Shown one piece after another: positions 11,888 to 25,952 of a stretch of 64,000 nucleotides of DNA. Within the stretch, counting starts at the first letter, position 1; each line of letters begins with the position of its first letter. A program made the position numbers and the translations under genes. The stretch spans positions 124,001 to 188,000 of the forward strand of contig JAJIRX010000782.1 in the NCBI GenBank assembly GCA_023853785.1, given 5' to 3'. Source of the stretch: Psilocybe azurescens. Lineage: Eukaryota; Basidiomycota; Agaricomycetes; Agaricales; Agrocybaceae. The notes beneath the pieces are model-generated. The model had not been told where the DNA came from. It saw only the letters and a list, made by a program, of their open reading frames with translations, and did not search any database.

Positions 11888-11896
11888 AGTCCATGT

Positions 11897-12019
11897 ATGG
11901 TTGGCGGGAGCTCCACGGCTGGATTTTGACTTTTGACGTTGGAACTTTCGAATTTCGAACTTCGAGAATCGATTTTTGAGAGCGCTACAAATTCACACGG
12001 TCATTACAAAGCAATTCAC
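11897..12019 (+). repeat. Left 123-bp terminal inverted repeat
   Basis: Starts ATGGTTGGCGGGAGCTCCAC and ends near CATTACAAAGCAATTCAC. The reverse complement recurs at 25461-25583 with the same length and only a few differences (for example GGCTGG against GGCCGG and AATTTCG against AACTTCG). It contains several TTCGAA-like sub-repeats that could be protein-binding sites. Confidence 0.85.
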
Positions 12020-12487
12020 GATTATTCCACAAATGATCGTCTCGAGGACGGTGCGTCGCGCCTTGTAATTAGAAGTAGAGGCATTAGGTAGTGAGGTGGG
12101 GGGTGGAGAGGTCGGCGGCAGTGTTGTGGTGACGTCATCTCCAGGGCGTAGAGGACCGATGGCAATGCTGAAGGGTGACCCCACTTCGCATCACCATGGT
12201 ACTCTACTCTACCTATTATACATATAGATTTGTGATTAATAAAAGGATTATCTGATTCTAAGGTGATGGGTGGGGCGAGATTTTAGAGATATTCGGTAGG
12301 TGATGAATGGGTAAGGTAAATTTGTGTTGACCACCTATGCAGTCGGTCATGGTACAGGTCAGAGTAAGTAAGTAAAGTAGAGTGTTAGGGAGGTAAGCAC
12401 GTGGCGGCGTCTCCTTCTCACGAGACAACATACCCGCAGGCGGGTACTTTCATTTCAACAGTTCTACATCTCTATCGCTACGGACAC
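12020..12487. other. Non-coding stretch inside the element
   Basis: About 470 bp between the left terminal repeat and the 3' end of the transposase gene. It has a G/T-rich part (12090-12400) but no recognisable gene. Confidence 0.4.
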
Positions 12488-14187
12488 TCAAGCCGCTGTG
12501 ATCAAAGGTGCCATGGATGAGAAGATAGCCCACCCATTCATGCAGTTATCAAGTCCGGGAGAGCTGACCAAACCATACGCATTGCAGCGCCGCTTTTTCG
12601 AAGTCATCATCCACCCATCGCATGGCTTCTTGATGCGAAATTGATATCTTCGATCGAAGGCCGTCAATCACTGCTTGGTCAATTTGAATCCGGCAATCCA
12701 CCGCAGGAGACTTTGGGACCGTGAAATCCATGCCTTGGGGTTGATCCTGACATATTGACCTTGTTTTTCTGCACACGGATCTTGTGATTATTCCAGTATG
12801 TAACAAACTTGTCAAGCTGATTTTGTAGGATCTTTGGCCATAGCCAGTAGAAGAGGTTCCTGTCAATAGAAGTATGAGCTCATAGAAATCAAAAGGTGTG
12901 CACGTAAGTAAACCATATGACATACACATGAATAGGGTTTGTTGGGTTATAAACTCCGTCCATATAGCCTTGACGGATGGTATCTTTGACGTTGATTCCA
13001 AATGTCTGAAGAAACCAATGCCAACAGCCTTCAATTGGGGTATTATGCACGCTTTTCACCTGAACTGTTGGTGGAAACTTTTCTGCGTCTATCTCATCTG
13101 TATATGCATCCCTATTTCATATGTAGAGTTTGTTCAGAGTAATGTCAGATTGATGATATTATGACTCACCGTAAGGCGGCTTGAAAAATGAGAATGTTTC
13201 CTGTTTCCGACCCTTTATCCGTGACAAAGGTGATAGGGATCACTGGTGAGACGTTCTGATAGATATACATTAATTAATAGTTTGCAAATTTTATCAATCT
13301 TTGTGATCTCACTCTTGTGCTTCTGAACGTAGTCGAGATATAAATGTCCTATTGTTGTTGCAAGGCGGTTGTTGGGGACGACAACAAGATGCAATATAAA
13401 TGAAGACCATTGATCTTTTACTCCATAAATCGTCAAGCCGACACCACCCATGTTAAGCCCCTGCGCATTCAATTTGTCATGTCCATCAGCATGATGCTGG
13501 TGGTTTGGTCCAATAGAGGAAAGGGTGGAACGACGAATGTGTTTGGCACCAGGAAAGCGACGTGCTAGCCCTTCAGGTGCATGGATTGCCAAAACACTTC
13601 GTATAAAATCTCTGGTTCCCGAGTTCAAGAAAAATGTGTTAGCAAAACCCCAATAGCAATATTGTGATGAGCTAGGATGCTTACCAAGCCAAGGGCATTC
13701 CTGAGTTAGCAAGGAGGACCCCTATCGTTCCAACACCTCGCAATTGCGATGGGTCATCTGCAACTTGATCAAGTACAGCCTGCGTCGCAATGTCAGCTGG
13801 GGAGGTTTTCGGACACTGGGAATGTCAAATTTATTATTAAGTTGAGAAAGCTTTGAAGGCCTGTATAAATGAATGAAAATCAGTCCAATACACGATGTGA
13901 TACTGCTCCAACTCTTGATCTACCGTATAGACAAGCCATGCTCAGTTTCAAGTCTTGCAAGCCTTTCAGAAACGGACAGCTTTTCCTTTGCATATTGATG
14001 CAGCGACCTGCTCAGAACATTGTCGTCTGGATCTAATTTGTGAAAGGCTTAAGTTAGAAATTTGAAAGTACAAATCGGAATCACTGAACTCACAGTTTTT
14101 GATGCCATAACCATTAATACCACGTGAATTGTTATTGCTCATACTCAGTGGAAGCTCACGTGAGAGATGGGGGGGTTGATAAGCCAA
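12488..14187 (-). CDS. Integrase-core (DDE) transposase-like protein
   Basis: A retroviral-integrase-fold transposase of a type frequent in basidiomycete genomes; presumed to cut and join the ends of the surrounding element. The start at 14187 gives MAYQPPHLSRELPLSMSNNN, then DPDDNVLSRSLHQYAKEKLS and ARLETEHGLSIR, a block GVGTIGVLLANSGMPLAW, and the catalytic core. Candidate catalytic residues are visible: D in HHADGHDKLNAQGLNMGG (about 13480), D in FVTDKGSETG (about 13205) and E in NTPIEGCWHWFLQTFG (about 13040). Introns separate these blocks with good borders. The C-terminal part reads PKSPAVDCRIQIDQAVIDGL and EAMRWVDDDF; reaching the expected ending NGWAIFSSM (stop at 12488) needs two frame changes near 12720 and 12575, so the copy may be inactive. 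A shorter end at 12549 is possible. Confidence 0.72.
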
Positions 14188-14388
14188 CTCAATGAGACAA
14201 TAATTAATTTATACAAGAGCAGCCATCAGCCAAAAACAAGAAGTCAGGACAACGTGCTAAGCCACTACTGAGTAAATGTCAGGTACAATAGAAAAATACA
14301 TCTAGATTTACTTTGGGATGATATCGGATATCAAGAAGGTCAAGAAGACTGTCACTTTATTGAGGGTCACGTGCTTCCCTTGCGGATT

Positions 14389-17300
14389 TCATTCATCTGA
14401 AAGGTCTAGCTCGTCGTGTTCTTCTGAGGAGTCCGAGTTATTCCCCTTGCCATTACGCTCTCACTGCTGCTGTTACCTGATAGAGATTTCAGCTTGAGAC
14501 CATTGCAAATGTAATTGCATCGATGTTGAGCCTTGAATATCTTGATACCTTCTTCACCATGATCACCGATACCTGAGTCACTAGTATATGGATGAATAAA
14601 ACTTAAAGAATAGAAGTTAAATGGTTAGTACGTACACTTCATGGGAATGGGACATAGGATCAAAAATTACAAGTGTATCTCTGCCCCAATAGTCATAGAC
14701 GAGCCTGTAGAATCACACCAATTGAGCATAAGTGACAGGTTCTTGAGAAATGATGACAATAACAACTTACCTTGCATGTCAGCAAAGACGAGCTCTTCTC
14801 CACTGAATTCATAGACAAAATGGGTGAAGGCTGCTAAGGTTTTCCCAAGCTTATCATTACAATGAGGATGAATCATTGTTCCACTAAATTTTTGGACAGA
14901 TTTTGTGCGACGAGGTTCAACAAGCCAAACTGCAGCATCCTCCTCTAGAGGTGATAGTGAAGATGCAGGAGAGGGTGTTCCGACTTCACAGACAAGGAAG
15001 CCTTCAGAAACAATTACATCTAAGAAAAGTTTAGTCAATAATAAATGGTAAGTACGTCTCAATTAAGGCTCATGGTGTGAATACGTACCACCTGCAAACT
15101 CAATCCTTCTTTCCTTAGCCAGAGTTTGAAACTTGGCTAGAAACCAGCCTGCTGTCCTTAAGCGAATAAGCTCTCTCTCGAGGTAATCTTTATTCTCAGA
15201 AGCAGAAACCTCTGCATCTGAACCTATTTCAAAGAACCGCTTTGCTACATAGTGGTCAGACCTGATAGAAAGCTGTAATAAGATGTCAGTATTTTATGTT
15301 GGCATGGGTAGGCAATTCTTTTAAGTACCTTATACACATGTTTTGTGGCACCACTAGCAAAAATGTTCTTGTCTATGAAGCCATCGTCAATTTGGCCATT
15401 CTCTGGCCATCCAATATCAACTTCGCCGGTTTCTTTGTCACAGGTTGTATGGGCTTTTTCACACGAACAATTGAGGTAGTATCAATTCCAGTACTGCTAG
15501 CATGCCTCGTTCGGATGAATGTAGATGGCGGAATTGCACCTAATAAATCAAAGGCATATTTAATGACTCAATCTCACTGAAGTCAGCACAAGCTTACTTG
15601 CGAAGTCACTTGCTTGGCGTTTTGAGTGGGGTGGGTTTTCATGATAACTGGTATGAGTGGCACTATGTTTCCTTCCTGGAACTGATTGAGAAGTGGTTAT
15701 CCCATTCTTTCGGAAGAATAAACTAGAGATTTAGTACATGTACAGTGACTCAAAAAACTGTCCGGATGTTTTGAAAATTGAACTTAAATTGACTATAGTG
15801 TCATGTAATCTTAATGAAATTGCATGATTCAAAATGTATTGGAAAGCCTTGCATCACAGCTTTCAGGAGGTATAATATATGTTTGTATTTGTTTGGTTTA
15901 TCTATTATTATTAAATACTTTATGAAAATAACACATCCGGACAGTTTCTTTCGCGGCCCGTTGGAATATGGGTATCTATATAAACTAGTACTTTGTGTGG
16001 CCTCCATTTGCCCTCAAAACAGCTGCAACCCTTCTAGGCATACTATTGATCAATTTCACACAGTCCTCCTTGGGTATTTTCTCCCACTCCTCCTGTACTC
16101 TATCCCATAACTCCTGGATACTCTTTGGAGCATTTTCATATTCTGCAAGGCGCATTTTGAGAATATGCCACAGATGTTCAATGGGATTGAGGTCTGGGGA
16201 TTGTGCTGGCCAGTCTAGAAGCTCTACTTCTTGGTCTTTAAACCATTTCTGAGCCTTTTTGGATGTGTGCTTGGGATCATTATCCTGCTGGAAGATGAAG
16301 TTTTCCCGATCGAGGTCGTAATACTCCAGAGTTTGAAAGACATGGTCATCCAAAATGCTCACATAGAGCTCTCCATCCATCCTGCCTTCTATTCTGCACA
16401 TGTATCCAACACCACTTGTTGTCATACAACCCCAAATCATCACATGTCCTCCTCCAAATTTGATGGTTTGCTGTATATGCTGAGTTTGGAGAGGAGAACT
16501 GGCCTTTTCCACACCCACTGCCTTCCATCTGACCCAATGCGATTGATCTTGGTCTCATCTGTGAACATAACACATTTCCAGTCTTCTTCTGTCCAGTGTT
16601 CATACTTCTGGGCAAATTCCAAGTGAGCCTTCCTATGGTTCTTGGAGAGCAACGGCTTTTTGACCTTGACTCTTGCCACAAGATCCTCTTTTTGAGGGAA
16701 TTTCGAATGGTTTGGATGGAGATAGATGTGTTTGTGATATTGAGAAGCTGGTGGCGGAGTTGTGTGGCAGTATCGGCTTTTCCAGTGGTAACAAGTCGAA
16801 CCAGATGGCGGCGGTCATGGGGAGTGAGCTTAGAAGGACGGCCTCCACGGTTTTCCTTCATAGGTAACTCCATCCCAGAGCATATCTCCCCTATAGCAGA
16901 CTTCCCAACACCAAGTTTGGTAGCAATTTTCCAAATAGAATCACCATTCTCCAGCATATAGATGATGTTAGAGCACAGTTCAGGAGAGAGAATGCATGGC
17001 TGTGTAGCAGAGAATAGTGGGGTATAAACCTGGGGGAATGTATGGTTTTAGTCTTGTTTATATATCTTAAACATGTTTTCATTTATTTGATATTGTTTTT
17101 GCATGTTTACAATTAAACAAAACCTTATTTCGTTGATTCCAACGGGCCGCCAAAGAAACTGTCCGGATGTGTTATTTTCATAAAGTATTTAATAATAATA
17201 GATAAACCAAACAAATACAAACATATATTATACCTCCTGAACGCTGTGATGCAGGGCTTTCCAATACATTTTGAATCATGCAATTTCATTAAGATTACAT

Positions 17301-18445
17301 GACACTATAGTCAATTTAAGTTCAATTTCCAAAACATCCGGACAGTTTTTTGAGTCACTGTAAGTTAGACGCCAGAGAAATTATGTTTAAATCAATAGAC
17401 TTACAGCTGGCTTATCAATGTAAAGCTCAACTGACATCTCATACTGATGTCGTGCACCTGAAGCCTTCTTTGGTGGGCGTCCTTCAGGGCCATAAAAAAT
17501 AGCCATTTCACCAGTTTGATATTGGCTATAAGCTTCCCCAACGGTGTTATTCATTGTGCCGGGGAGAAACCTTTTGTTACCAGACCAGCAAAGCTCAACT
17601 TCGTCACTGTTGATAAGGAATAAATAAAACAGTTAAGTGGAGTAAAGTGGAAATAAAGTTACCGTACAAGTTCCCTTCCCTCTTGTGTTGCCCAGCGAGT
17701 ATTAACTGTTGCTAAGTAGTCATCAAGAACCTCTAATAGACAGGACACATTGAAAATTTATGATCAACCAAGATATTTTAAGCAAGTAAAGAATCAAACC
17801 TGAGAGAAATGCCTCTTTACTCCAAGGCTTGCCCCATTGACCAGAGTCATAGTCAGTAGATTTCTGGTCTTTTTGGATGAGCTCTTGATTCGGCATTCTG
17901 CTTTAATAAATATCTTGTTCTCGCCAGTCGCAACATTATTTTTAGCAGCTATCAACCCTGCAGTTGTGTGGAGAGGAACAACAGGTGGGTTAACTGGCTG
18001 CTTTGTTAACCGAGCCTCCATGGAATGAGAACGAGCAGCACGAGAGGTTTCAAGTGCAGTGCGTATCAGAGCCTGAGAATCTAAGGGAAAATGTACAAAG
18101 TTAATTTTTAGCGCCCTCAAATGAAATGGGCGCTTACTTTCAGGATCCTGTCCAGGTTTCTGAACACATCGCCCACACATCGTACCAGAAAGATTCTTCC
18201 AGGCAATACCACACAAGCTACACTGCTTGTAGTTCTATGGATAGAATCAAAGAAGGTTAGTGCGACCAGCAGTAATGCGAGAAATTAAAAAGCAAAAGAC
18301 ATACCTGCCAGTTAACATACTCCACTGAGCCATCTTCCAAGGCTGCAAGCTTTGTGCATTTTGCACATAGACTGTGCGTTGTTTTGTTAGAAAAAGAAAG
18401 GCCACAGCCAAGTCCATCATCAGCCCCAGAGTCGCAGATATCCAT
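14389..18445 (-). CDS. Alpha-type protein kinase with N-terminal zinc-binding modules
   Basis: Atypical serine/threonine kinase of the MHCK/EF2-kinase family. The N-terminus (start 18445) is MDICDSGADDGLGCGLSF and carries CxxC pairs (LCAKC, CSLCG, MCGRC), probably zinc ribbons. A linker follows with SQALIRTALETSRAARSHSM and FIKAECRIKSSSKK. The kinase domain lies at the 3' end: ASGATKHVYK, YVAKRFFEIG with the ATP-contacting lysine (about 15241), KFSGTMIHPHCNDKLG, LAAFTHFVYEFSGEELVF, ADMQG, and the C-terminal glycine motif GDSGIGDHGEEG (about 14545-14580) followed by QHRCNYICNGLKLKSL. Roughly a dozen introns; one holds a whole Tc1/mariner element. The kinase sits 200 bp from the transposase, same strand, inside the same inverted repeats. 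The stop is 14389 or 14406 depending on a last small intron. No frame break was found. Substrate unknown. Confidence 0.78.
15743..15967 (+). repeat. Tc1/mariner left terminal inverted repeat
   Basis: About 225 bp. It carries ACTGTCCGGATG near its outer end and the reverse complement CATCCGGACAGT near its inner end (about 15934-15945). Confidence 0.9.
15985..16957 (-). CDS. Tc1-like DD34E transposase, two frame breaks
   Basis: Cut-and-paste transposase. The helix-turn-helix part reads ENGDSIWKIATKLGVGKSAI and then NRGGRPSKLTPHDRRHLVRL with a GRPS-type linker. The catalytic residues are D in VMFTDETK (about 16555), D in FQQDNDPKHTSK (about 16285) and E in SPDLNPIEHLW, with 34 residues between the second D and E. 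The frame changes at 16689-16693 (T run on the plus strand) and 16505-16508 (T run); restoring one base to each run gives one continuous frame, so loss of activity is not proven. Family members usually start somewhat further upstream; a likely first segment ends CILSPELCSNIIYM just before 16957, possibly after a small intron. Confidence 0.85.
17136..17360 (-). repeat. Tc1/mariner right terminal inverted repeat
   Basis: Reverse complement of the left repeat with a few mismatches. The same 12-bp motif occurs at both its inner and outer ends. Confidence 0.9.
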
Positions 18446-19348
18446 ATCAGACAGCGGGAAATCCAGTTAATTAAAGCAACGAGCAAAGTAGAACCTAAGA
18501 CACAAGAGTATAGCGAGAGAAATGTGTTGAGTTGAGATTTAATCATCCACACAATTTCTTTCCTTTAAATACTTTTTACCCACCGCCTTAGAATTGCGAA
18601 TAGAATTCTAAAAATAAAATACCAATGCTGCACTTGGAATAAGTCAATGTTCTAAGCAATCTAGAAGCTTTGCAGCTGTGATGGCTCACGACTTCAAGAA
18701 CAGTGTGTGGAAAGATATGGCCCAAAAACATTCTGTGGAAGACAAATAATGTGAATCCCCTACGAGGCTCTAGACCTGGAGGATCACCATTTACGATTCA
18801 ATATTAAAACACAGATGCAGGTTGAAAGGCCTGGACTCTGCAGACTATGGTTCTTGGAATAAATTTCTATACAACTTCAATAGTATAACTCAGTGGAGGG
18901 TGCTCCTGACTATATATTGCTAATTTCCTGGGAATTGGCGAGATATGTTGTAATAAACAGAGCCTCAAGCTGCCAAAGCTTGTCCATTATTTGTTTAGCT
19001 ATTGATAGAACTTGGGACATCGTGTACCATCAAGTTTTGTGAGTTGAGAAGGCCAGGTGACCTTCTATTTATATGCGAAACTTCTAGAAATCTGGAACAG
19101 GATCTTTATCAGCGGTACATTAGTCCAATAGCTGCAGGGGACCCAGTTCTCTTCTGTTGAATACTTGAGAATATGCCGGAACATGGTGACACAGTCTGCA
19201 GTGTGTTTTATGACCTTTCCGAAGTCATAAGTTAGAATTCTGTATAGTACATGCTACAGCTCAATTGCTACTGCTACGTATTAGAAGAAAAGTCAATAAA
19301 TATGTCGTACGATACAGCTTGTGTCTTCCAGAATGTAGCGAGCTGTAA
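18446..19348. other. Non-coding stretch inside the element
   Basis: About 900 bp upstream of the alpha-kinase start, ending at the copia insertion. No gene seen; it should include the kinase promoter. Confidence 0.4.
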
Positions 19349-19353
19349 GCTGT
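19349..19353. repeat. Copia target-site duplication, left copy
   Basis: GCTGT directly before the LTR beginning TGTTAG. The same five bases follow the other LTR at 24817-24821. Confidence 0.92.
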
Positions 19354-19823
19354 TGTTAGAAATAGACAATAAAGCACAAATCAGTAGCTATACTGATGAG
19401 TAACAATAGAGTCAAATCTCAAATGCGCAACAATGACAAGTATGAGTGAAAATAGTAAATTGCTTCTGTAGACTCCAAATCTTGTTCTAGTGTCTTTGTT
19501 TCCTCAGACATAGTAGGAATACTGGTCTTTTACATGGCTAAGTGTCTAAAAATGGCAAGGCGTGACTATAGTTGTCCACAATATTGCGTCAAAACACCAA
19601 ACCTATAATTACGTGACAAATTATATATCACCGGAACCGTCTCAACGAGGGGATTCCGGATCAGTGATCAGAATTTGAATAACTTTACTCTACAAAAAGT
19701 TATTAACAGAACAGTGTGCAAAAACACTGAAAAGAGCGAATTCTAACTAAGTGTCCATTTGTACAAGTCCAAATATCAAGTGTAGAACATTAGAAACAAA
19801 GTGTTTAATCACAAAAACTAACA
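19354..19823 (-). repeat. Copia 3' LTR (left in the window)
   Basis: 470 bp, TG...CA ends. Nearly identical to 24348-24816. One extra A in an A run distinguishes their lengths. Confidence 0.95.
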
Positions 19824-19834
19824 CAACCCCTGAT

Positions 19835-22800
19835 AAAACACTTCCATAATCCATAAGATGTTGAATCACATCCAAAACAACCCCTGATGATACATCTCCT
19901 CATTCTTCCTTCCCCATCACTAATCCCATTAATTCTTGCAACTTCTGAACCTGTGGCTTGGGTAGAGCTTTTGTTAACAAGTCGGCTGGCATATCCTCGG
20001 TCCACAAATATAAGGGGTTGCATTCTCTTCATTGCCACCTGATCTCGCAACCAGTAAAAACATAAGTCCAAGTGTTTCATCCTTCCATGATGTTCAGGAT
20101 TCTTTGCAACAGACATAGATGACTGATTGTCCATATACAACTTGGCTGGTGCAGATGGTGTGTACCCCAACTCCTTCAACAACTTTTGAATCCACCGGAT
20201 TTCCATGCCAGCTGCTCCAGCAGCTATAAACTCTGCCTCTGTTGTTGACCTTGTCACAACAGGTTGCAGCTTGCTCCTCCATGAAACCACTCCTGACCCA
20301 ATCTTCACCAAATAACCACCTGTTGACTTTCCACTATCCTTATCCCCTCCATGGTCTGCATCACTATATGTGGCAAACAGTTCATCTCCAAGTGAGGGGT
20401 CTGGTCCATATTCCAACCTCATCTCCTTTGTGCCCTGCAAGTACCTAAACAAGTGCTTAACAGCTTTCCAGTGTTCCATGCCAGGGTTGTGATTGAATCT
20501 TGCCAACACACTGACTGTATAAGCAATGTCAGGCCGGGTCATGGTAGCCAAATACATAAGAGATCCAACGGCAGAAATATATGGGATGTCATTCATCTCT
20601 CTCTTTTCTTCAGAACTCGAAGGACTCTGCTCTGACATTAACTTCAATCCTGGTAGCATAGGGGTACCAACGGGTTTGCAATCAGCCATTCCAAACTCCT
20701 CCAATTTGTTCACAATATATTGGCGCTGTGACAAATATAGCTTGTGCTCTTCCCTTTTCTTGTAATCTCAACCCCAACAAAAATTTGGTTGCACCCAGGT
20801 CCCTTAGTTTGAAATGCTTTCCAAGTTCAATAACAAAGTTGTCAAGAGCCACCTGAGACTTTGAAGCCAAAGTGATGTCATCCACAAATATGGGCACAAT
20901 GATTTTGATATTATCTCTATCATATATATAGAGTGATGCATCACTATAAGTCTTCTGAAACCCAAGTTCAAGCAAGACCTTTCCAAGTGTTTCACTCCAT
21001 AGACGTGATGACTGCTTTAACCCATAAATGGACTTGTTAAGCCTACAGACTGTGCTTTTTCACCTTGCAAAAATCCTAGTGGCTGCTGCATATAGATCTC
21101 AACGTCAATGTCACTGTTTGTGAATGCATACGATATATCCACAGAACGGAGTTCCATATCTTCAATAGCAGCCAAAGCCAACACAACGCGCACAGTAGCA
21201 TGCTGCATAGTAGATGCAAAGGTTTCAAAGTAGTCCTGGCCAGGTCGTTGGTTAAAACCTTTACCGACCACACATGCTTTAAATCGCTCAATTGACCCAT
21301 CTGCGTTATATTTTGTCTTATACACCCATTTAGACCCAATTGCCTTCTGCCCTTCAGGTAGTTCCACAATTTCCCAAGTTCCATTTTCCAAGTGCCAGTT
21401 ATATTCTTCCAACATTGCAGCTTGCCACTGATCTGCCTGTTCTGAGTTCATGGCTTCTGAATAAGTTTGTGGATCAGCAGACACACTAACAGGATTAGCC
21501 ATTTCTTCATCATCATCCTCAGAGTCATTCTCATCATCAGAATCAGGAACAAGAGATTTAGGTGTTCTGACTGCCCACCATTCACCAGGAGGTCTACGGT
21601 TACGTCTCGGATACCTTGACGTTAAACCCTCTGGGTTGACCTCTGGTTCTGGTTCTGGTTCTGGTTCTGGCACTGGTTCAGGTTCTGGTACTGACTTGTT
21701 ATTACCTGTTGCAAGACGTTTGGAACGTCGAACTGCGGCAACAGGCTTGACATGTTTATGAGGTTGAAGCTTTATACGCTTCCGTGGCTCTTCCTCTGGA
21801 TCACTTTCAATAATCCTGGCATTACGTTTGGTATGTCCTGGCAATTCAATCTCTTCCTTCTCCTCCTCTTCAATTGTGGGCTCAATCGCTTTCTGTTTCC
21901 CTTTGTCAACTTTAGGTGCTGGGTTAGGTCCAGTGGGAGGTGCAATCTCGTCTACCTCAGGCAAGACAGGTGGTAGTACTTCTTGTTCATTTTCTGACTC
22001 TGGGATAGGAATTGGTTCGGGTTCAATTGCATCATGCTGATTGGATGTCATCAATTCTCCACCATATGTGTAGCATTCATCAAAGTCAGCTCTTTCACAG
22101 ATAATGACTTTCTTAGTTTCCGGATTGTAAAACTTCCAACCCTTGTAACCATCTGGATATCCAATAAAGATGCACTTTTCCATGTGTGAACCCAATTTCT
22201 TCCTTTTGTCCTTTTGAATGTGAACATATGCAACACATCCCCAAACACGTAAATGACTGACATCAGGTTTCTTGCGATGCCAACCTTCATAAGGAGTTCT
22301 CCCAATAACAGCAGATGTAGGACAATGATTCAAGACATGCACAAGTGCAGCCAAACACTCAGCCCAAAATTTCTTGGACAGACCAGACTCTTCAAGCAAT
22401 GCAACAATCCTTTCAGCAAATGTTCTATTGGCATGTTCAGCAACCCCATTTTGCTGTGGTCTGTTTCTGCAGGTATGCTCTCTCACAATTCCACATGCAT
22501 CCAGGTGCTCTTGGAATTCTTTTGACATGTATTCACCACCTTTATCCTCCCAAAGTCGTTTGATCTTTTTGCCAGTCAAGTTCTCAGCATAAGCTTTGAA
22601 CGTCTTAAAGCAAGTGAATGTGTCGCTTTTGCACTTCATAGGGATAAGCACTTTAAAGTGTTCAGCATCGTCAATAAATGAAACCCAATAACGATAGCCA
22701 GAATGTGACAAGATACCAATATCATGCACATCTGTGTGGATCAATTCCAAGACCTCTGTAGCACGATTATCTGATGATGGGAATGGATTTGCATGCATCT

Positions 22801-24299
22801 TTCCTGCCAGACATGGTTCACATATAGGATCTGGTAAAGCTCTCGAGTCCAGTACTAAACCATCAACTAGATCTTTCTTTATCATGAACTTAATCCCATC
22901 ATAGTTGTGGTGTCCTAACCGTTTATGCCATAAAGACAAGTCGAGAGGCAGCGTCGAAACCAAATGTACATTTTCCATAACATCTACTGTAGAGCCATCT
23001 AAATATCCAATATTGTCTGTATCAATGGTAGCAGTAAACAAGAGTTTCTTTTGTGAAGAAAAGTCCATTTTGTCATGAGAAATATGTACATCAATGCCTT
23101 TGTATTTGTCAAATATAAAACAGCAAGAAGATTATTACGAAGTGCAGGAACGTGAAGTACTCTAGTGAATTCTACATCTCTATATCGTTTTCCTCTAACT
23201 AACGGTCTGAACAGAACACTACCAATGCCCTCTGAATATATAACTCTATGGTCCGCTAGTCTAATAGGCACTCTATATGGGGTATAATTGCGTATCCAGT
23301 TTCTATGCGGTGTCATATTAGAAGTGGCGCCTGTGTCTGTGTTCCAATGAAATACGTTAGAAGATGTAGAATTGACCTCGTGTTCAGCAACAGCACTTGC
23401 CTTTCCAGCAAATTCTGTCACTGCCGCTGCTTTCTCTTCTTCTGCCTTTTGGCACTCTCATTCTTTGCTTTCTTTGCTGCCAGCTCTGGACAGTTGAAAA
23501 CCCAATGACCCAATTCTTTGCAGTAGTTGCACCGATCCTTTGGCCCAGGTTTTCGCTTTTCCCATGGTTTCTTGCCCCCACTACCACCTGCTTTCACTTG
23601 GTTCAACGACTCTGTTGTTTGACGTTGACGATTCAACTCTTTGCTGCGAACGCCCTGCATGATGACCGACTTGTCCAGCTTTTCCATCAACAACAGAGAA
23701 ACCACAAGATGTCTGTAGTCATCAGGCAAGGCACGTATGAGTGCCATGCACTGAAGCTCTTCATCAAGTGTCTCAATCTTAAAGTCGGCTGGACGCAAGT
23801 TCTGAATAGTTTGCATGGCCTTTTCAATTCGGGTTCCCAAAGTTACTAGGGATTCGTCGTCCTGCTTCCTGATAGAGAACAGGTCATCATACACATTGAA
23901 TCGTGCTCCTGGCTTCTTGTTCAGGTGAGCAGCTTCAAGCAATGCCCACATCTTGACTGGATCTTCATCATGCCCTCTAAAGTGCACCCTTTGATCATTC
24001 TCCACAAGCAGGTAGATTTCACCTGCTGCCCTCTCTGCCTTCATCTCCCACTTTGCCACTACCTCTTCATTGATGAATTTATCCCCACTAGCAACTGGCT
24101 TTGCTTCTTTGCCAGATACCAATCTCCATAGTCCATTTCGCATTAACCATGCCTTCATCTCCCCAGCCCATTCAGGATAGTTTGAATTTGACAATGGTTT
24201 AACTTTAGCAACTGCGTTTGTTGTCTGAAGACATTTTGCAACAAGTTCAAATGTCAAGTGTTGTTTCAAGGATCCAACTAGTCTAGTATCAGACAGCAA
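19835..24299 (-). CDS. Copia Gag-Pol polyprotein, interrupted at homopolymer runs
   Basis: Retrotransposon polyprotein. Gag (24299-23418) ends with a CCHC knuckle CNYCKELGHWVFNC. Protease shows WNTDTGATSNM (about 23340). The pre-integrase zinc module has WHKRLGHHNYDG and PICEPCLAGKM. Integrase residues: LIHTDVHD, KRLWEDKGGEYM and QQNGVAEHANRTFAER. Reverse transcriptase: WVYKTKYNADGSIERFKACV, VDISYAFTNSDIDVEIYMQQ and the active-site box FVDDITLAS (about 20885). RNase H: TYSDADHGGDKDSGKSTGG and STTEAEFIAA. The frame changes at 23447 (Gag/protease), 23111, 21056 and 20752; each lies in a homopolymer and most need just one extra base. With LTRs about 1 percent apart these breaks look more like assembly errors than decay. 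The exact C-terminal stop is approximate (about 19805-19990). Confidence 0.9.
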
Positions 24300-24334
24300 T
24301 AGACTTAATCAATGTTTTGCCAAGTTTAAAGCCC

Positions 24335-24347
24335 GGGGCCCATAACC
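24335..24347 (-). other. Primer-binding site of the copia element (half-tRNA type)
   Basis: Directly after the 5' LTR, read on the minus strand, is GGTTATGGGCCCC. This complements the anticodon-arm region of initiator tRNA-Met (contains CCCATAACC), the primer mode known from Drosophila copia, rather than the tRNA 3' end. Confidence 0.7.
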
Positions 24348-24816
24348 TGTTAGAAATAGACAATAAAGCACAAATCAGTAGCTATACTGATGAGTAACAA
24401 TAGAGTCAAATCTCAAATGCGCAACAATGACAAGTATGAGTGAAAATAGTAAATTGCTTCTGTAGACTCCAAATCTTGTTCTAGTGTCTTTGTTTCCTCA
24501 GACATAGTAGGAATACTGGTCTTTTACATGGCTAAGTGTCTAAAAATGGCAAGGCATGACTATAGGTGTCCACAATATTGTGTCAAAACACCAAACCTAT
24601 AATTACGTGACAAATTATATATCACCGGAACCGTCTCAACGAGGGGATTCCGGATCAGTGATCAGAATTTGAATAACTTTACTCTACAAAAGTTATTAAC
24701 AGAACAGTGTGCAAAAACACCGAAAAGAGCGAATTCTAACTAAGTGTCCATTTGTACAAGTCCAAATATCAAGTGTAGAACATTAGAAACAAAGTGTTTA
24801 ATCACAAAAACTAACA
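24348..24816 (-). repeat. Copia 5' LTR (right in the window)
   Basis: 469 bp. Transcription of the element should start in this copy and run to lower coordinates. Confidence 0.95.
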
Positions 24817-24821
24817 GCTGT
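24817..24821. repeat. Copia target-site duplication, right copy
   Basis: GCTGT, identical to 19349-19353. Confidence 0.92.
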
Positions 24822-25460
24822 GACCTGCATGAGAGAGAGATTTAACAAGTGTAAGCCGACCGGACCAAGGTCAAGCGCCTCGAGGATCAGCCACAGTTGC
24901 GTTGCTTGGTCTTATTTATCAGATGCAGTGTCTACCGGACTTTATGATTGATCACACTCGTATTTCTTGCTCAGTGTACGGCGACTGTAGTAAAGAATAC
25001 CATTCGCGTAAATATTTTAAATAGCTTTTTATTGATATGTATTTTATATGTTAGTCGCTCATGCCCATGCAACGGACCGCACTTACATCGAGTGTTTGAG
25101 TTTCTTGTTATATAATGTAATCATGTGACACTGCTCATAGCCGAGTGTTGGAGACACGAATTGGTGCACTAACTGCACAAATGACTGTACACCTCAGAAC
25201 CACATTGTATACAGCTTATATATGTCACATACCTCGGAAGAATAGTTGGCTCAAAAGAAATACATATTTGGAGGTATGCAAATCAGCATTTTTGACTTAC
25301 ATAGCTTACATATGAACTCGACCGAACAGGAAGGCTCAGCTAAGTGCAATGTACAGTTCAGTACAGATCGCAAATGGCCTGACCAGCGATTTCAGTGACG
25401 ATGTAGACTTTACTATGGAAATGATCACTCATTAGGCTGTGTGAATGCCGCAGACCAATT
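24822..25460. other. Non-coding stretch before the right terminal repeat
   Basis: About 640 bp of the host transposon between the copia insertion and the right 123-bp repeat. No gene or repeat recognised. Confidence 0.4.
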
Positions 25461-25583
25461 GTGAGTTGCTTTGTAATGACCGTGTGAATTTGTAGCGCTC
25501 TCAAAAATCGATTCTCGAAGTTCGAAGTTCGAAAGTTCCAACGTCAAAAGTCAAAATCCGGCCGTGGAGCTCCCGCCAACCAT
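25461..25583 (-). repeat. Right 123-bp terminal inverted repeat
   Basis: Reverse complement of 11897-12019 with a few mismatches; ends CTCCCGCCAACCAT next to AGTCCATTA. Confidence 0.85.
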
Positions 25584-25952
25584 AGTCCATTACAATTTAT
25601 TCTTGTTTTATTCATTAAGAACCTTACTTGTGCATGTACTTAGACTGCGACACTCTGCAAGTACTCTGTATTCACACAAGCATTGTCAATTGAATATGCA
25701 TTCCTATCTTACTTATCCGCTTTTGAGACACTGAGGTGCATGACGGTTGACTCACGGGGACCCTAACGTCGGGTCACTATTGGGATGGAATTCTAATTTA
25801 TCTGTACCTAATTGTACATAGGCTACATAACATTGTAGTTTTATCCATGATTGCTGGAATACTCAAGCTCAAGAACCGAAGTTTTGACAAGTGTAGTAAT
25901 ATTTTACAGTACAGTATTAATCGCTCAGACCGGTCACCAGTCTCACCGAAAG
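25584..25952. other. 3' flank between transposon and membrane-protein gene
   Basis: About 370 bp with no gene seen; probably holds the 3' untranslated region of the minus-strand gene that ends at 25953. Confidence 0.4.

Follow-up and report, generated by a model that had tools for sequence, protein, structure and literature searches.

IS3EU-type DNA transposons of Psilocybe azurescens that carry an alpha-kinase gene beside the transposase

Described IS3EU elements and the copy in the window

Complete IS3EU transposons are described, in the available part of one account (PMC10045372), as having TA..TA ends, target duplications of usually 6 bp and a DDE transposase related to those of IS3 and IS481. 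In a subgroup from rust fungi the ends read TAYGG..CCRTA, the duplications are 6 bp long and the inverted repeats exceed 30 bp (Kojima 2025, PMC12730594). As far as the available text of that paper goes, a family of this subgroup occurs in Tuber as well, all of its elements hold a TET/JBP gene between an opposed transposase and alpha-kinase, and the TET/JBP protein is proposed to help the element escape methylation. Here we describe a DNA transposon with a transposase and an alpha-kinase gene in a stretch of 64,000 nucleotides from the agaricomycete Psilocybe azurescens (contig JAJIRX010000782.1, positions 124,001 to 188,000), referred to below as the window; C669 designates the contig of the window copy, and other C-numbers are contigs of the same genome. 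The element is very likely a cut-and-paste IS3EU transposon whose lineage regularly encodes a DDE transposase together with an alpha-kinase; the copy in the window is itself dead. The main features of this copy are given in window coordinates and compared with a second copy on C471.

11889..11895, no strand assigned: left target-site duplication GTCCATG, matching the right copy at 6 of 7 positions
11896..25584, no strand assigned: IS3EU-type DNA transposon copy, TATGG..CCATA, 13689 bp with both later insertions counted in; ends and three internal blocks match C471
11896..12023, plus strand: left terminal inverted repeat of 128 bp, 97% complementary to the right arm, also present at both C471 ends
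12488..14142, minus strand: IS3EU-type DDE transposase gene, 7 exons and 420 amino acids in C471; frameshifts and one stop in the window
14389..18445, minus strand: alpha-kinase gene, 12 exons and a 585-amino-acid model in C471; frameshifted in the window and interrupted by a Tc1-like insertion
25457..25584, minus strand: right terminal inverted repeat of 128 bp, the repeat also present at both C471 ends
25585..25591, no strand assigned: right target-site duplication GTCCATT

An earlier note on the window had pointed to inverted repeats at 11897-12019 and 25461-25583. These match at 120 of 123 positions; the full repeat is 128 bp long (97%), and the true ends of the element lie one base outside each arm, giving TATGG..CCATA. 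The 9-bp flanks with seven matches that had been described do contain a target duplication, which is better read as 7 bp with six matches (GTCCATG/GTCCATT). Both genes are indeed on one strand, with a spacing of about 250 bp from the kinase stop to the transposase ATG in place of the 200 bp first given. The estimate of about 6.6 kb after subtraction of two insertions agrees with the length of an uninterrupted copy of the same content.

That copy came from a search of the genome (70.4 Mb, 937 contigs) with the 123-bp repeat, which gave 21 matches. The sole other pair covering the whole repeat was on C471, the remaining matches being shorter or more distant. The uninterrupted C471 copy (C471:942598-949199) is 6602 bp long and has other flanks, with an exact 7-bp duplication, ATATGAG. 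Three blocks of the window align with it at 97.7, 97.9 and 96.9% identity, and no alignment continues into the two insertions or past the element ends. A matching copy at another site thus shows the window element to be a transposon that is present at least twice. In the C471 gene models every intron is GT-AG and 55-73 nt long. The transposase model matched the Pfam rva_4 integrase core (50 bits), with the D, D and E motifs seen where alignment rows cover them, and the kinase model matched Alpha_kinase (PF02816) with 100 bits over profile positions 1-185, the whole profile.

Judged by published descriptions, the element would fit the IS3EU superfamily by its TA..TA ends, its long inverted repeats, the 6-bp duplications of most relatives and its transposase family. 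The ends are shared with IS3EU elements in general, as is, presumably, a DDE transposase of the IS3/IS481 kind, and the duplication, usually 6 bp in IS3EU, has that length in part of the copies here; the word kinase has no occurrence in the available text of PMC10045372, whereas an alpha-kinase is present here. TA was found at both ends in all 11 copies with both ends read. The window and C471 copies share TATGG..CCATA; in other families the third to fifth bases differ, with TACCG, TACAG or, at one end each in C673 and C504, TAG. The inverted repeats exceed 30 bp, measuring 128 bp in the window and 33 to about 560 bp in kinase-bearing relatives. Those of about 560 bp, at C673:43169-49428 and C504:31318-37585, are several-fold longer than in the other kinase-bearing families.

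Other placements were considered. Tc1/mariner was dismissed because the target duplication and the transposase family differ, the Tc1-like transposase of the window being part of a separate later insertion; hAT and MULE were dismissed solely by the length of the duplication and the Pfam family, and IS481EU because its duplications are about 4, 15 or 25 bp in the available part of its description. The TET/JBP-bearing IS3EU elements of Pucciniales and Tuber, in the available account, resemble those here in their ends, in inverted repeats of more than 30 bp, in the 6-bp duplications that part of the copies here show, and in the presence of transposase and alpha-kinase in one element. They differ in host, the present one being an agaricomycete, and in gene orientation: unlike their opposed genes, the transposase and kinase of the window family are co-directional, while 9 of the 13 transposase-kinase pairs found in this genome are opposed. 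None of 15 genome matches to PF12851 (TET/JBP) lay inside any of the 13 pairs. Membership in the TET-bearing subgroup was ruled out on this result and on the co-directional genes of the window family. On C688 and C241, TET/JBP matches lie on the same contig as a kinase, at distances of about 11 and 17 kb. Kyakuja, Zisupton, Plavaka and other TET/JBP-bearing fungal DNA transposons likewise have an enzyme gene besides the transposase, according to the available text of PMC12730594; their transposases and their accessory enzyme are other than those here.

The pairing of this transposase with an alpha-kinase, which the earlier note took to be undescribed, is already in print: the available part of Kojima 2025 (PMC12730594) mentions it in passing for TET/JBP-bearing IS3EU. 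Among the papers listed in searches of the open-licence literature, we recognised no other that describes it. What the present genome adds is the pairing in elements that lack TET/JBP, a co-directional arrangement in two orders in addition to the opposed one already published, and an alpha-kinase family carried almost entirely by transposons.

Alpha-kinase loci across the genome

PF02816 was matched at 18 places in this genome; this count is a lower bound (at least 18), and the E-values of the local scans refer to small sequence sets. Thirteen of the 18 loci have a transposase of this kind no more than about 5 kb away (C471, C669 in the window, C16, C623, C777, C673, C504, C142, C560, C683, C857, C801 and C241). 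The C801 pairing is drawn from a transposase fragment (E 2e-4, first profile), and the C241 transposase was scored with an iterated profile. Four further loci are copies or derivatives of such elements: C438 is a 1384-bp derivative bearing the ends of the C777 element, C534 is a truncated copy of C673, C168 is a copy of C142/C683 with one end and 2.6 kb at 97.6% identity to C142, and C688 is linked through 98% identity to C241 over 3.2 kb. At the last locus, C278, neither a transposase nor a repeat was found in the 9.4 kb read around the kinase. The C278 kinase (C278:17192-17822) resembles that of C857 and is possibly a host-adopted copy or an old relic.

In this genome nearly the whole alpha-kinase family is encoded by these elements. 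The kinase is enclosed by both inverted-repeat arms at 12 of the 18 loci (C471, C669, C673, C504, C16, C777, C142, C560, C683, C801, C438 and C857), the left tip of C857 being damaged and unreadable. No inverted repeats were found at C623, which was therefore counted as linked only, and no clear ones at C241, where the right side was read to 8685. The divergent families that enclose both kinase and transposase are C471/C669, C673/C504, C16, C777, C142/C683, C560 and C857. The kinase occurs in at least eight divergent families: family A (C471/C669), C673/C504/C534, C16, C777/C438, C142/C683/C168, C560/C801, C857 and C241/C688. Such recurrence argues that the kinase is a regular constituent of these elements and not chance cargo. 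The proposal of a kinase-carrying DNA transposon was supported, as other inverted-repeat pairs about 6-7 kb apart also enclose transposase and kinase.

A chance neighbourhood of the two genes was dismissed in view of copies at different sites that share ends and content and of the recurring pairing. As a control, the same two profiles were run on 127 kb not chosen for kinases, consisting of the remainder of the window and of ten loci collected because of their related repeats; the transposase profile matched one locus, an already-known rva_4 locus, and the kinase profile matched none.

A host kinase gene could instead have been captured once, by chance, in an ordinary transposon, as neutral cargo bound to decay. 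The deletion derivatives at C438 and C801 lend this some support, as they keep their ends and duplications with only a partial kinase (no transposase was found in C438), and so does the broken kinase of the window. A single capture is disfavoured by the recurrence of the kinase across at least eight divergent families, and by its position beside related transposases in other Agaricomycetes. With just one of 18 kinase loci showing no element feature, there is also no obvious host donor. We regard a single capture as very improbable.

Movement, parallel divergence and decay

DDE-class transposases cut and paste via inverted repeats. Transposition was deduced here from ends, duplications and empty sites, and the transposase would act on the TA..TA inverted-repeat ends and leave a duplication of usually 6 bp. 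Exact 6-bp duplications were present in six of the 11 copies with both ends read (C673 TCCCTC, C504 TTGCAC, C142 CATGTG, C560 CATATG, C683 AGCTCG, C801 GTGCAT), and those of C777 and C438 match at five of six positions. The joined flanks of C560 matched at 97-99% in 40 places scored among 181 candidates, always reaching base 240; 37 of the 40 ran from the first to the last base and three started at base 3 or 4. These matches indicate that C560 was inserted into one copy of a repeat and that the remaining copies represent empty sites. The joined flanks of C504 matched several repeats across the junction (bases 79-240 of 240), and no empty site for C471 was found in this assembly.

Protein searches, in which about 8000 candidates were scored for the kinase, gave 76 related transposases and 22 related kinases. 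The relatives that bear an organism name are presumably all Agaricomycetes. Nine of the 22 kinases apparently lie on the same contig as a related transposase and 13 do not, with linkage deduced from equal values for the longest contig within one species rather than from maps, except in Psilocybe cf. subviscida, where the locus tags of kinase and transposase are consecutive. The other linked cases are from Gymnopilus junonius (2), Laccaria bicolor, L. amethystina, Phlebopus, Lentinula detonsa (2) and Crepidotus. Transposase and kinase identities were correlated, with a Mantel r = 0.91 (p 1e-4) for nine pairs, comprising C471 and eight from other species, 0.83 for 14 pairs (C777, C673, C16, C623 and L. 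amethystina added) and 0.79 for 11 pairs. Within this genome, C16 and C623 are each other's nearest relatives for either gene, at 56 and 54%, the kinase being compared over no more than 46 positions. The kinase appears to have travelled with the transposase long enough for both proteins to diverge together.

The window copy is a decayed, dead member. Its kinase, previously called intact-looking, has indels in the exons at four sites compared with C471, and its transposase exons have indels at three sites and one stop. The two later insertions that had been proposed are real, and both are missing from the C471 copy:

15741..17362, no strand assigned: Tc1-like insertion with 227-bp inverted repeats and a DDE_3 transposase
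19354..24816, minus strand: Copia long terminal repeat (LTR) retrotransposon, upstream of the kinase, with LTRs of 470 and 469 bp that differ by 4 mismatches and 1 gap

The Tc1-like element lies in the modelled intron 5 of the window kinase gene. The four mismatches between the Copia LTRs indicate that this element entered the older transposon fairly recently. Both elements hit the window copy after its own insertion. By simple site counting, the ratio of nonsynonymous to synonymous change (dN/dS) between C471 and the window is about 0.21 for the kinase (19 synonymous and 14 nonsynonymous changes) and about 0.30 for the transposase (9 synonymous, 8 nonsynonymous and one stop), values that show constraint between these two copies.

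Several observations weigh against a mobile IS3EU lineage that regularly encodes both genes, besides its classification from descriptions noted above. No kinase was found near related transposases at C511 (9 kb read), at C515 (5.4 kb) or at the remnant on C807 (9.9 kb), related transposases at C440 and C886 being left out of this check, and seven rva_4 loci had no nearby kinase match in the genome-wide PF02816 search. The duplication is 7 bp in the window family (exact in C471, 6 of 7 in the window) and an exact 5 bp in C16. The parallel divergence partly tracks host relatedness, though C16 and C623, paired as nearest relatives above, come from a single host. Kinase intron 7 (62 nt, GTGTGA..CCAG), downstream of which the kinase core lies, spans a stretch that is translated in relatives, and at this point both family-A copies, C471 and the window, are displaced by 1 nt with respect to the relatives. 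The common displacement suggests that their source copy moved though its kinase was shortened or dependent on an unusual intron. It also adds to the case for a neutral cargo captured once; the parallel divergence of kinase and transposase and the kinase dN/dS of about 0.21, however, speak against such cargo.

Kinase structure and possible roles

The catalytic domain and its conserved residues place the kinase in the alpha-kinase family (PF02816). A lysine, which we take to be the catalytic one, and the D-x-Q-G motif are conserved among the relatives. The AlphaFold2 (AF2) model of a Laccaria homologue of the transposase had a predicted local distance difference test score (pLDDT) of 89.6, and its nearest solved chains were TnsB, IstA and retroviral integrases, with low template modelling (TM) scores over the whole chain. 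The model of a Flammula homologue of the kinase had a mean pLDDT of 65.8 and was confident mainly in the kinase domain, the fold of which matched MHCK-A (E 3e-12), TRPM7/ChaK, eEF2K and ALPK1. These canonical alpha-kinases (MHCK-A being that of Dictyostelium) were the best PDB matches by sequence and fold and have the catalytic fold and the HxCNxxC motif in common with the kinase here. Unlike them, it is transposon-encoded, and it differs further in an extra N-terminal part with cysteine-rich modules, large stretches of which were modelled with low confidence.

We favour a role of the kinase in the regulation or protection of the transposon. It probably acts in trans for the benefit of the element, on transposition or on silencing, and it might do so by phosphorylating the transposase or by phosphorylating a chromatin or silencing factor of the host; we put both routes forward tentatively.

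Direct regulation of transposition would involve phosphorylation of the transposase or of a partner protein of the host, for instance one of DNA repair, and is a possibility that we hold with some doubt. The pairing with one transposase lineage and the parallel divergence favour it. The genes are head-to-head in the nine opposed pairs (C777, C673, C504, C142, C560, C683, C857, C801 and C241, with the C801 orientation judged from a fragment), an order that would allow co-expression. Kinase and transposase follow each other in that order, co-directionally, in the window and C471, whereas C16 and C623 have the transposase and then the kinase, also co-directional; the existence of three different gene orders counts against direct regulation, as does the fact that partial kinases did not stop the derivatives from moving.

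The kinase could alternatively be a counter-silencing factor that protects the element, in a role like that of the TET/JBP dioxygenase in other DNA transposons of fungi, which we likewise consider possible without thinking it probable. In rusts and Tuber, TET/JBP and the kinase are found together in IS3EU elements, and escape from methylation is the function proposed for TET/JBP in the available text cited above. At 45 positions a CpG of C471 is TpG or CpA in the window, compared with 16 in the opposite direction, which is consistent with methylation-type decay of the window copy and makes such decay plausible in this genome. The lack of any TET/JBP match in the 13 kinase-transposase pairs, however, counts against such a role.

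The available parts of earlier reports describe the alpha-kinase family as highly expanded in rusts (PMC4469406), list it in a table of domains (PMC5295586) and name an alpha-kinase as one of the 46 proteins found under diversifying selection in work on candidate effectors (PMC4150398). Taking mushrooms from this genome and rusts from the literature, we see about an even chance that the alpha-kinase belongs to a fungal IS3EU lineage as its permanent second gene and that the basidiomycete expansions are largely copies of a transposon gene serving the transposon, not host signalling or virulence. Such elements would offer a mechanism for the patchy expansion of alpha-kinases in fungal genomes, and alpha-kinase counts or fast evolution in that family may reflect transposon load. 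Their joint divergence also makes the kinase and the DDE transposase a defined pair for studying the role of a kinase in transposition or in escape from silencing.

Further elements have ends like those of family A. Four elements of 4.0 kb (C637:66696-70726, C638:752-4766, C639:525-4525 and C264:5533-9552) have the same flanks and so probably stem from a single insertion that was multiplied as part of a larger repeat; neither transposase nor kinase was found inside them by profile search. Their duplication, CGAGAG, was readable in three of the four and not at the left of C639. Elements of 850 bp, resembling miniature inverted-repeat transposable elements (MITEs), have the same kind of ends and similar flanks (C785:22122-22971, C786:371-1222 and C485:8227-9076).

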